From Prevotella sp. (lineage in GTDB: Bacteria; Bacteroidota; Bacteroidia; Bacteroidales; Bacteroidaceae): a stretch of 36,115 nucleotides of DNA. A program made the translations under genes and the position numbers. Below are positions 17,932 through 21,051 of this stretch, piece by piece. The notes under the pieces are model-generated. The model had not been told where the DNA came from. It worked only from the letters and a program-made list of their open reading frames with translations, and made no database searches. The stretch spans positions 1 to 36,115 of the forward strand of contig JAFQGS010000018.1 in assembly GCA_017415455.1 (NCBI GenBank). Reading direction: 5' to 3'. How positions within the stretch are numbered: position 1 is the first letter of the stretch; each line of letters opens with the position of its first letter.

Positions 17932-18378
17932 TCAGTCTATATCCGTCACCTGGTATCTGTTGTTGAATTCCAGTTCAATTCTGTTGCTGAGTTTTACCTC
18001 GTAAGACTTCTTGTTTTTCTCAATCTTTGTGATTTTTGTCTTCGGATAGTTTGCCTTCACATACTTCATGATGCCTTGAGGAATAAGAGCCGCCGGAACA
18101 ACATTGCCGTTCCCCTCAATCTCCGTCCATTCACCCTTGCGGTTGAACTCAATGCTCTCGCCGCTCGTGAACACCACCTTGTACTTCTTGTCGCCCCATT
18201 CAGCGTCATAGTTGGCCATTGCCACCTTCTTGTCGGCAAAGTGTTTCTTTATGATTTGCTGCGCTGCTGCAGGCAGTTCGCTTGTCTGTATCGGCTTCTT
18301 GTTGTCAGCCATTGCCGGTGTCAAAACTGAAACCATGCAGAAGAAAACCGCGATGATTATAAAGAAAATCTTTTTCAT
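17932..18378 (-). CDS. Exported PepSY-like protein
   Basis: A 148-residue protein with signal peptide MKKIFFIIIAVFFCMVSVL (cleavage probably after PAMA). Two PepSY-like units follow: ELPAAAQQIIKKHFADKKVA with YDAEWGDKKYKVVFTSGESI, then ALIPQGIMKYVKANYPKTKI with KSYEVKLSNRIELEFNNRYQ. This is the duplicated 'putative beta-lactamase-inhibitor-like, PepSY-like' family (PF11396 type) that is abundant in Bacteroidota. Its function is unknown, though members often respond to envelope stress. A clear Shine-Dalgarno (AAAGAAAGGA) precedes the ATG. The gene has a ~125-nt leader containing a 14-bp palindrome. Confidence 0.87.
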   Translation of the reverse strand: MKKIFFIIIAVFFCMVSVLTPAMADNKKPIQTSELPAAAQQIIKKHFADKKVAMANYDAEWGDKKYKVVFTSGESIEFNRKGEWTEIEGNGNVVPAALIPQGIMKYVKANYPKTKITKIEKNKKSYEVKLSNRIELEFNNRYQVTDID

Positions 18379-18539: not shown

Positions 18540-18667
18540 GTATGCGATATAGTCAGAATCTATACTTTCACATTCTTTATGATGTTTTTGGTGATATTCC
18601 GTAAAACGTATTTGCTTTTTGCATATATTAAGTAAATGAGTGTACGTGTGTATGGAAGAAAAGCAAT

Positions 18668-18707
18668 AGGATTAACCTCTCGGCGAGGTGTCAATATCCT
18701 TTTTCTT
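18668..18707. terminator. Hairpin with T-rich tail, possible terminator
   Basis: ACCTC-TCGGC-GAGGT forms an inner stem-loop and AGGAT (18668-18672) with ATCCT (18696-18700) an outer one. TTTTCTTC follows on the plus strand. There is no plus-strand gene before it. On the minus strand it lies downstream of yjbQ and the repeat array and could stop read-through. Confidence 0.4.
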
Positions 18708-18734
18708 CTCCGACTACTCACAACCTACAATTAG

Positions 18735-18766
18735 CTTGTCAACTTGTCTGCTTGTCAACTCGTAAA
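18735..18766. repeat. Four tandem 8-bp repeats
   Basis: CTTGTCAA, CTTGTCTG, CTTGTCAA and CTCGTAAA follow each other without spacers (period 8). The last copy is diverged. Confidence 0.75.
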
Positions 18767-18951
18767 CTTCAAAAACTTTTCTTTTTTTTTGACAAACGCA
18801 ACTCTCAAAATAGAAAAAATGGCGATGCATTTGATGCCTTTTCGCACTTTTTTCATTGCTCCGTCCTGTCTGTTTTTGCGTGTTAACAAATCTGAAAGAT
18901 GCCCGGATGCCGCCGTTGGGCGTTTTTTTTAGCGAGATTTTGTGTGTGTTT

Positions 18952-18987
18952 TATAGTTCATATAGTGTCTATAGTTCCTATATTTCT
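18952..18987. repeat. Four tandem 9-bp repeats
   Basis: TATAGTTCA, TATAGTGTC, TATAGTTCC and TATATTTCT follow each other without spacers (period 9). The period differs from both the 8-bp set to the left and the 11-bp array to the right. Confidence 0.75.
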
Positions 18988-19001
18988 ATTAAGAATGACA
19001 A

Positions 19002-19267
19002 CCATTGCTATGCCATGGCTCCGCCGTTTCATATTGACAGGTGTCCCATTACTATGCCATGGGCTCGCCGTTTCATATGAACTGGCGGTGCGATTACTAT
19101 GTCATGGTGGTAGGATGGCAATTTTATCGTGCCATGATTACGTTGTCATCGCACTGCGATAAAATAGCCATCGCACCGCCGTTACAACGCCATCCTACCG
19201 CCTTCTCAATGCGATGATGCGGCGATAAGTATGCGATGACACAGCCATAAAGGTGCAATGGTGAAAA
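19002..19267. repeat. Degenerate tandem array with 11-bp (22-bp) period
   Basis: From 19147 to 19256 ten consecutive 11-mers (CATCGCACTGC, GATAAAATAGC and so on) all have C or G at position 1, T at 3, G at 10 and C at 11. Read across the joints, the repeated word is GCSAT followed by six variable bases. To the left, longer copies recur at 44-45 bp: CCATTGCTATGCCATGG at 19002 and CCATTACTATGCCATGG at 19046, with GCCGTTTCATAT at 19023 and 19067. Several inverted repeats are embedded. No reading frame is kept. Function unknown. Confidence 0.72.
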
Positions 19268-19282
19268 CAAGTGCCGGTAATG

Positions 19283-19690
19283 CTATAATATGGTGGCAAC
19301 AATCTTGCGCGGCCCTCCGTAGTCTCTGAACTCGCAGAGATAGATTCCCTGCCATGTGCCTAAGTTCAGACGTCCGTTTGTGATTGGAATGTTTATGCTG
19401 ACACCTATTATTGATGACTTTGCATGACTCGGCATGTCGTCACTCCCCTCAAAAGTGTGCAGGAAGAAAGGCTGGCTCTCTGGAACAAGACGGTCCATTA
19501 TCCCCCTCATGTCATGCCTCACGTCGGGGTCGGCGTTCTCGTTAATGCTAAGCGCGCAGCTGGTATGCTTTACAAAAAGGTTTAGAAGCCCGCACTCCGG
19601 TAAGTCGGGAAGGTTTCTGTATATCTCACCCGTTATGATATGGAACCCCCTTGACATGGGTTTCAGTGTGAATTCCACTTGCTTTGCCAT
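19283..19690 (-). CDS. YjbQ/UPF0047-family protein
   Basis: A 135-residue cytoplasmic protein of the YjbQ family, some of whose members show thiamine-phosphate synthase side activity. The physiological role is unsettled. Conserved segments: FVKHTSCALSINENADPDVR (a metal-binding His and acidic residues), HTFEGSDDMPSHAKSSIIG (second His and the SSIIG signature) and GTWQGIYLCEFRD near the end. Length is normal for the family. It has the best promoter of the window on its minus strand. The 11-bp array begins 15 bp behind its stop codon, so it would be transcribed as a 3' tail unless termination occurs. The divergent iron alcohol dehydrogenase starts 173 bp away. Confidence 0.92.
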   Translation of the reverse strand: MAKQVEFTLKPMSRGFHIITGEIYRNLPDLPECGLLNLFVKHTSCALSINENADPDVRHDMRGIMDRLVPESQPFFLHTFEGSDDMPSHAKSSIIGVSINIPITNGRLNLGTWQGIYLCEFRDYGGPRKIVATIL

Positions 19691-19736
19691 ATGAGTAAAT
19701 GATATGTTAAAATGTTAAACTTGATGTCAGACGGCT

Positions 19737-19768
19737 GCAAAAGTAACCAAAATGTCCGTACAAGCAAA
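19737..19768 (-). promoter_or_regulatory. Consensus promoter of the YjbQ-family gene
   Basis: On the minus strand TTTG (19768-19765), exactly 19 bp, then TACTTTTGC (19745-19737). This is a full match to the Bacteroidota TTTG-N19-TAnnTTTGC promoter and the anchor for the taxonomic assignment. Confidence 0.85.
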
Positions 19769-19819
19769 GCGTTTAAGTTTTATTATCAGATAAGTAATGG
19801 GTTTCTACGACATATTTAT

Positions 19820-19828
19820 TACCTTTGT
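19820..19828 (+). promoter_or_regulatory. -7 promoter element of the iron alcohol dehydrogenase gene
   Basis: TACCTTTGT fits TAnnTTTG. The predicted start is near 19832, about 30 nt before the ATG at 19864. The -33 region (ATGGGTTTC) is imperfect. It is divergent from the yjbQ promoter, about 50 bp apart. Confidence 0.6.
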
Positions 19829-19863
19829 AGAATTAAAACAACTTTAGATAAGTTCTATATATT

Positions 19864-21051
19864 ATGAAAGATTTTATATATTATGCACCTACAGAGGTGG
19901 TCTTTGGTAAAGACTCGGAGCAGAAAGTGGCAGAGCTTGTCTCACGTTATGGCGGCACAAAGGTGCTGATACATTACGGAGGTGAGCGAGTAAGAAAAAA
20001 CGGATTGCTTGACAATGTGTGCAGTCAGCTGTCAGAAGCCGGGGTTAAGTATGTCCTTCTGGGCGGCGTAGTGCCCAATCCGCGTCTCTCTCTTGTAAGA
20101 GAAGGTGTTGAGCTTTGCCGTCGCGAGTCAGTAGACTTCATTCTGGCAGTAGGAGGCGGCAGTGTCATCGATTCTGCTAAAGCCATCGGATATGGTGTGG
20201 AATATGACGGTGATGTATGGGACTTCTATACACGCAAGGCAGTGGCAAAGAGTTGTCTGCCTATAGGAACAGTGCTCACCATACCTGCGGCAGGCAGTGA
20301 GATGAGCGAGGGTAGTGTCATAACAAATGAGGACGGATGGGTGAAGCTGGGCTATTCAAGCAGATACTGCAGATGCAAGTTCGCCATAATGAATCCAGAG
20401 CATACCTTTACCCTGCCGCCATATCAGACGGCTGCCGGCGTTGTGGATATCATGATGCACACCATGGAGCGCTATTTCTCACATGATGACGATATGACGC
20501 TGACCGACAACATTGCCGAGGCATTGCTCAGAACAATGATGGACAGTGTGACAAAGGTGCTTGATAACCCCAACGACTACCGCCATCGTGCGCAGATAAT
20601 GTGGGCAGGCAGTCTGGCGCACAATGACCTTACAGGCTGCGGAACAACAGGCGACTGGGCCACTCATCAGCTGGGGCATGAACTCAGCGGTCTTTTCGAT
20701 GCCACACATGGTGCCAGCCTGGCGGCAATGTGGGGAAGCTGGGCACGCTATGTGTACAAGAACAATGTCCAGCGCTTTGTGAGATTTGCTGTCAATGTAA
20801 TGAAAGTGGACAACGATTTCACCTCGCCAGAGGCAACAGCGTTGGCTGGAATACAACGCACAGAGCGCTTCTTCCAGGAGATAGGCATGCCGATAAACAT
20901 ACCACAGCTTGTCGGACGCGATGTGACAGAGGAGGAGATAGAAAGCATGGCATATAAATGCAGCCGCGGCGGTAAGATAGAGCAGGGTATGTTTATGAAA
21001 CTCTCGCAGAGCGACATACATAAGATATACTGCAACGCGGCACTGAAGTAA
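19864..21051 (+). CDS. Iron-containing (group III) alcohol dehydrogenase
   Basis: A 395-residue NAD(P)H-dependent aldehyde/alcohol oxidoreductase of the butanol dehydrogenase/YqhD type, cytoplasmic. Cofactor loop: AVGGGSVIDSAKAIG (GGGS at 97-100). Metal ligands by motif: D195 and H199 (GVVDIMMHTMERY), H268 (GDWATHQLGHELSG) and H282 (DATHGASLAAMWG), each one residue from the YqhD ligands D194, H198, H267 and H281. Length and termini are complete. It probably reduces aldehydes in fermentation or detoxification. The exact substrate cannot be told. It has its own promoter. The following macroglobulin gene starts 65 bp later on the same strand, without an obvious functional tie. Confidence 0.95.
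   Translation: MKDFIYYAPTEVVFGKDSEQKVAELVSRYGGTKVLIHYGGERVRKNGLLDNVCSQLSEAGVKYVLLGGVVPNPRLSLVREGVELCRRESVDFILAVGGGSVIDSAKAIGYGVEYDGDVWDFYTRKAVAKSCLPIGTVLTIPAAGSEMSEGSVITNEDGWVKLGYSSRYCRCKFAIMNPEHTFTLPPYQTAAGVVDIMMHTMERYFSHDDDMTLTDNIAEALLRTMMDSVTKVLDNPNDYRHRAQIMWAGSLAHNDLTGCGTTGDWATHQLGHELSGLFDATHGASLAAMWGSWARYVYKNNVQRFVRFAVNVMKVDNDFTSPEATALAGIQRTERFFQEIGMPINIPQLVGRDVTEEEIESMAYKCSRGGKIEQGMFMKLSQSDIHKIYCNAALK

Follow-up and report, generated by a model that had tools for sequence, protein, structure and literature searches.

Dispersed repeats between genes

The STRR sequences of cyanobacteria are short tandem repeats with 7-bp units. For REP elements a GTAG or CGTC terminal tag is named (PMC3733652), and some REP and BIME elements have been proposed as gyrase sites (PMC3733652; PMC6379681). 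According to the accessible text of the latter report, the arms of gyrase sites in E. coli carry a GC periodicity of 10.75 bp, and gyrase is drawn to BIME-2 elements; blocking transcription raised the gyrase signal at BIME-2, which is therefore not simply a product of supercoiling (PMC6379681). The available parts of two further papers describe the PINSR element of Prevotella intermedia and Prevotella nigrescens, reported in 177 and 184 copies without terminal inverted repeats (PMC4755523), and the BrickBuilt element of Porphyromonas gingivalis, whose terminal inverted repeats resemble those of ISPg1 and ISPg9 and of which both ends are intact in 4 of 19 copies (PMC4596501). A paper on a REP survey tool, in its accessible text, found REPs to be neither clustered nor periodic along the genome examined there and does not mention Prevotella (PMC12306157).

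Here we highlight a GCSAT array beside yjbQ in a 36,115-nucleotide stretch of a Prevotella genome (the window). The array is one copy of a non-coding repeat that is dispersed between the genes of its own genome (G000), and spacing of about two helical turns, built on different words, is present in four sampled relatives. Within the accessible text of open-licence papers no description of two-turn dyad arrays with lineage-specific words was found, in line with the first-pass annotation of the window, which knew of no named element with this pattern.

Architecture of the element beside yjbQ

The region 19002-19267 shows strong autocorrelation at lag 22 (0.533, z 9.9), lag 44 (0.505, z 9.1) and lag 11 (0.408, z 6.1), and each value was reached by none of 1000 dinucleotide shuffles, so that the periodicity is more than chance. 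The 11-bp period that was originally proposed is borne out in that lag 11 lies above the shuffles, but the dominant period is 22 bp and is composed of two different 11-bp halves. The ten 11-mers from 19147 to 19256 carry T at position 3, G at position 10, C at position 11 and C or G at position 1, exactly as had been noticed. Further left, where the same words had been seen to recur at 22 and 44-45 bp, 19002-19146 taken alone gives strong signals at lags 44 and 22 and a weak one at lag 11 (12 of 1000 shuffles). Tandem Repeats Finder (TRF) reports a period of 44 at 19002-19107 and of 22 at 19209-19250. The pattern GCSAT-N6-GCSAT, with at most one mismatch, matches 24 times in the window against 9.5 expected, and 18 of the 24 matches lie at 19001-19259. 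A coding repeat was rejected, as it had been before, since neither 22 nor 11 is divisible by 3 and the words drift.

The unit of the array is roughly GCSATTAC-nnn-GTAATSGC followed by 3 bp. This 22-bp unit is a quasi-dyad, and successive 11-mers are therefore half-sites in opposite orientation. When 20 copies are aligned, a single 11-bp phase holds 9 of the 12 invariant AT steps, and the earlier description as a helically phased repeat is upheld. Most other copies align from about 19046, and the window copy carries the first 44 bp of its array in duplicate.

The array makes up the right half of a non-coding element of about 480 bp, in which a left module (18782-18931 overall) is followed by a 9-bp TATAG stretch and then by the array (Table 1). 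The extent of 19002-19267 given in the first-pass annotation does hold the array; the feature itself starts about 200 bp further left, at 18782, with sequence that is kept in other copies. The hairpin of the left module has different stem sequences in some of these copies, as judged by eye. Within 18782-18815 we observe a TTTG-N19-TAGA spacing, with the terminator-like hairpin after it, that resembles a Bacteroidetes promoter. Judged by these motifs, a transcript of about 100 nt is possibly made from many copies. Several left-module copies are preceded by 8-bp tandem stretches of the TCAACTCG or CTTGTCAA type (L058, L063, L064), and 9-bp stretches of the CTATAGGAA type, with no array attached, are found in several genus genomes in gaps or next to genes (L032, L033, L036, L037, L039). 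The stop codon of yjbQ lies about 20 bp from the array end, which places the array on the 3' side of this gene. The genes beside element copies look like ordinary chromosomal genes (named by eye, except for three window genes identified by search).

Table 1. Coordinates of the element and its neighbouring genes in the window
Feature	Position	Strand	Description
PepSY-like gene	17932..18378	-	Next gene beyond the element, on the strand of yjbQ
8-bp CTTGTCAA tandem stretch	18735..18769	+	Directly upstream of the left module
Left module core	18782..18905	+	T-run, GACAAACGCAACTCTCAAAATAG, TTTGATGCCYTTTCGCA, GTGTTAACAAA, GATGCC; aligned in 27 copies
Terminator-like hairpin with T8	18896..18931	+	Right end of the left module; predicted fold
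9-bp TATAGTTCC-type tandem stretch	18948..18989	+	Junction of left module and array; matches other genus genomes
Extra 44 bp (two units)	19002..19045	+	Left edge of the array; duplicated in the window copy
Main array	19046..19262	+	About ten 22-bp units, each of two 11-bp half-sites
yjbQ (UPF0047)	19283..19690	-	PF01894, E 9e-37

Copies in the same genome

The genome of origin comprises 2.50 Mb in 135 contigs and is 91% complete. A search of it with the region gave 90 matching rows on both strands, and at 20 places, the window included, at least 190 query bases were matched with identities of 66-100%. The three-word pattern GCSATN6GCSATN6GCSAT has 65 matches in this genome, as opposed to 0 for a reversed control. 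About 200 bp to the left of the array are common to most copies (34 matching rows for the left module, 27 of them aligned), whereas the copy L016 lacks the left module. Local slippage alone was rejected, because beyond the window another 19 places match over 190 bases or more. The earlier suggestion of an element generated by slippage is thus partly right, but the unit exists in many dispersed copies, possesses a left module and keeps no single hairpin register.

Across 15 copies (the window and 14 others), substitution rates are 0.240 in the array and 0.249 in the left module. Indels per substitution amount to 0.0128 in the array and 0.0525 in the left module, about four times fewer in the array; these counts are pairwise and hence not independent, and pairs below 60% identity were skipped. 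Of 68 pairwise indel events in the array, 5 are multiples of 11 and 63 are not, and 39 are one-base events that stem partly from a single 1-base deletion in the copy L003. The lower number of indels agrees with a constraint on helical phase and is no proof of it.

In 7 of 21 copies (L004, L006, L007, L010, L011, L021, L024) a TTTTAGRATTYGCC motif follows the array end at a distance of 96-101 bp. The intervening sequence is mostly unrelated between copies; L004 and L010, however, have a common flank, and these two are perhaps not independent. Array copies are also located at the ends of contigs C4, C22, C34, C78 and C98, and these repeats therefore probably break the assembly, so that copy numbers are underestimated. 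Extrapolation from 43 arrays in 400 kb of long contigs gives about 270 arrays in this genome.

Recurrence of the geometry with other words

The GCSAT element itself was sought in 398 genomes of the genus, its own included, that had been drawn from a larger group, with the two best candidates per genome scored. Eight genomes match at E<=1e-6, and the seven others do so only within query positions 143-213, which is mainly the 9-bp TATAG stretch. The 398 genomes hold no close relative; the best match to the yjbQ-ADH region covers the ADH gene at about 70% nucleotide identity. When as many as 13 candidates per genome were scored in 60 relatives, the array matched in its own genome alone and the left module matched others through the 9-bp stretch only. 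An exact left-module word had 0 matches in a genome contig collection from which the records of its own genome are perhaps left out, and a comparison with plasmids and phages gave nothing worth following.

The shorter patterns reach further. The three-word GCSAT pattern occurs in 42 of the 398 genomes (own genome included), mostly with one match each, and in G365 it has 21 matches against 3 for the reversed control. That control pattern is common in its own right in two genomes, with 17 matches in G356 and 11 in G346, which indicates that other words occur at 11-bp spacing in some genomes; judged from these matches, G356 and G346 probably contain arrays of that spacing with words of their own. 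A four-word GCSAT pattern is present in at least 116 stretches of the contig collection. Nineteen of these, chosen by titles of Bacteroidales type, were read, and the rest may hold many chance matches. Among the 19, several Bacteroidales metagenome-assembled genomes have tandem 11-mers with words of their own, some with inverted arms, and one stretch (L139) looks coding or a chance match.

The spacing was then counted in five genomes of the genus, in 20 stretches of 20 kb per genome (400 kb each), taken at even steps from four single-contig genomes and from long contigs of G000. Intergenic 132-bp windows were assigned by their best lag between 7 and 66. Multiples of 11 account for 106 of 170 intergenic periodic hits (43/54 in G000, 34/48 in G016, 10/27 in G369, 10/25 in G273 and 9/16 in G024), compared with 0 of 4 in one genome of the same order (231 kb) and 0 of 2 in E. 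coli (200 kb), the two genomes that served as outside controls. In G369, lags 21 and 22 are equally common, with 8 hits each. Measured against three dinucleotide shuffles of the intergenic segments, 41, 33, 10, 9 and 9 real hits exceed the shuffled ones in the five genomes. In four genomes no shuffle produced a hit at a multiple of 11; in G273 (36.6% GC) the three shuffles produced 1, 3 and 0, and the excess of its 9 real hits is modest. Lag-7 hits inside open reading frames are probably masked runs of N, which are present in G016, G273 and G024; period counts, shuffles, symmetry and position tests ignore N.

When 95 arrays of lag 22 or 44, the window array included, were compared by BLAST, 76 had a partner within the same genome and none had a partner in another genome. 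Dyad symmetry is significant by column permutation (p<=0.05) in 45 of 106 arrays from the five genomes, with about 5 expected, and not significant in the other 61. The arrays of G000 form two large vocabularies, components of 16 and 14 members, and the window array belongs to the 14. The component of 16 includes arrays of TTTGATGCCC and GGGCATCAAACG words with a 22-bp period (L357:12991, L366:15503, L367:6774), and its TTTGATGCCC words resemble a word in the left module. The first-pass annotation had made recurrence in related genomes a test of its reading. Apart from the 9-bp stretch, the GCSAT element was not found in the relatives searched; 22-bp intergenic arrays with other words do recur, in the four sampled relatives.

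Position of the arrays among genes

In the five samples, with genes taken as simple open reading frames of at least 100 amino acids, arrays occupy 33 of 187 convergent junctions, 16 of 188 divergent ones and 44 of 1024 tandem ones, and convergent junctions are favoured (Fisher test against the rest, 1.4e-8). In tandem gaps, 30 of 44 arrays lie nearer the 3' end of the upstream gene. Among gaps of at least 200 bp, the share for convergent ones is 31 of 68, against 57 of 301; the length of a gap and the presence of an array are confounded, and the convergent bias is thus partly an effect of the gaps.

What the arrays may do

The bias toward 3' sides would also suit an RNA element, with long transcribed hairpins acting as terminators or protecting mRNA 3' ends. 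The terminator-like hairpin of the left module and the fold z-scores of 18876-19270 (-3.8 and -5.1 on the two strands) point the same way, as does a local register near 19076 that stands apart with GT mismatches at 0.126 and AC at 0.029. Ten registers spaced by 22 (S 176-374) have a complementarity of 0.45-0.54 against a background of 0.25, which is expected if each unit is a dyad. None of these registers dominates, and their GT and AC mismatches are similar, with AC higher in the right-hand ones; overall, GT is not raised over AC. The array contains little covariation (L019 left out, and 10 of the 19 other copies kept after a 90% identity cut), and the core of the left module yielded no consensus RNA fold in an alignment from most rows of which the end hairpin is cut off. 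Rfam gives three matches in 18600-19900, the best of which reaches 21.1 bits where the gathering score is 110. Of the 44 tandem-gap arrays in the five genomes, the sense strand is the more stable in 18 and the antisense strand in 26 (p 0.04). Given no dominant register, thin covariation, no consistent fold and a sense strand that is not the stabler one, we read the array as a feature of DNA; an RNA hairpin was set aside as the main reading, and a role as an RNA element is very improbable.

Two further explanations concern DNA. The arrays could be selfish, functionless interspersed repeats of a MITE- or STRR-like kind, spread by a transposase or by gene conversion and grown by slippage, in which case the two-turn period would be a by-product of how they are made and the position bias would reflect tolerance away from promoters. 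We regard this as possible, if somewhat doubtful. The dispersed copies with a common left module fit it, as do the ordinary-looking neighbouring genes, the promoter- and terminator-like sequences that several copies, read by eye, retain undisturbed between the array and the gene, and the example of BrickBuilt, described in the available text as a MITE with 23-nt tandem repeats (PMC4596501). The array ends share CCATT, with one reverse-complemented; the ends of the full element, however, show no match by eye. A Y1 transposase (PF01797), the only family searched, has 0 hits in the 91% complete genome, while 5 of 14 control genomes are positive, and a REP driven by a RAYT was rejected on this ground. 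Two further results speak against a selfish repeat: indels are scarcer in the array than in the left module, and five genomes whose words are unrelated have nearly the same two-turn period. Alternatively, the phased AT/GC pattern could be a topology element, a site wrapped by DNA gyrase where positive supercoils collect, in analogy to BIME-2 of E. coli and the strong gyrase site of Mu. The published GC periodicity and the attraction of gyrase by BIME-2 (PMC6379681) support such a site, and so do the convergent enrichment and a lag-11 correlation of strong and weak bases that 72 of 94 arrays show (mean 0.106 against -0.035 when columns are permuted, p 1e-8). This correlation, though, is weak both for the window array (0.11) and for G000 as a whole (0.05), and G024 lacks it (-0.01); purines and pyrimidines are positively correlated at lag 11 as well (61 of 94 arrays, p 0.002), so that the signal is not specific to GC. 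Indirect readout would need no shared words, yet loci share words; the BIME-2 signal rises under transcription block in the accessible account (PMC6379681), and long convergent gaps may exist because something occupies them. We consider a gyrase site unlikely.

The best explanation, which we hold tentatively and give less than an even chance, is that the array is a DNA platform of phased dyads, bound cooperatively on one face by a lineage-specific dimeric protein. Half-sites recur every 11 bp, or one turn, in alternating orientation, and the pattern repeats every 22 bp, or two turns; with one half-site per turn, they face one side of the helix. A sequence-specific dimer of nucleoid, partition or insulator type would then most likely cover about 220 bp cooperatively, on a platform located between transcription units and mainly 3' of genes. 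Because the word differs from lineage to lineage, the protein would have diverged in step with the words. Arrays gain and lose length partly by whole units, and copies that carry the left module have spread through G000. The analysis establishes the helical phase, the dyad pattern, the dispersal, the lineage-specific words in five genomes, the position bias and the lack of support for an RNA, whereas binding by a protein, its dimeric state and the role of the array are what we infer. Of the binding platform in the first-pass annotation, the helical phase is confirmed and the protein is conjectural. Against a protein platform stand the 61 arrays without significant dyad symmetry, the 63 off-phase indels, the equal frequency of lags 21 and 22 in G369, and the fact that lineage-specific words are expected of selfish repeats too; the conservation of the left module suggests mobility rather than pure function.

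We speculate, with some reservation, that the genus harbours a class of intergenic arrays with a fixed two-turn dyad geometry and a separate vocabulary of words in each lineage. By analogy with satellite DNA and its binder, such a class could conceivably be the mark of a fast co-evolving chromosome protein that binds the arrays, a proposal we regard as uncertain. If the geometry is kept while the words change, something would read DNA by its helical face with a specificity that turns over fast, which, if true, would be a new nucleoid or insulator system. If the arrays are instead selfish, independent families in the genus would converge on a two-turn unit, and a mechanism for this would be needed.

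Comparison with known elements

STRR share with these arrays the short tandem words scattered between genes and differ from them in that the units here are dyads at helical spacing. BrickBuilt resembles the window element, in the text available, as a dispersed intergenic element with a leader and a tandem repeat of about two turns; inverted ends were not found by eye in the window element, whose unit is 22 bp and dyad-like (PMC4596501). PINSR is likewise lineage-specific, intergenic, multi-copy and judged non-coding; compared by description only, it differs in its length of 188 bp, and the accessible text mentions no 11- or 22-bp period (PMC4755523). REP and BIME elements, as described in the accessible text, are palindromic, intergenic and present in many copies, mostly in convergent or unidirectional gaps, and high-copy palindromic intergenic repeats are what we find here too, with symmetry significant in the 45 arrays given above. 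They are hairpins of 20-40 bp, however, whereas the window element is a continuous phased array of 22-bp units (PMC3733652; PMC6379681).
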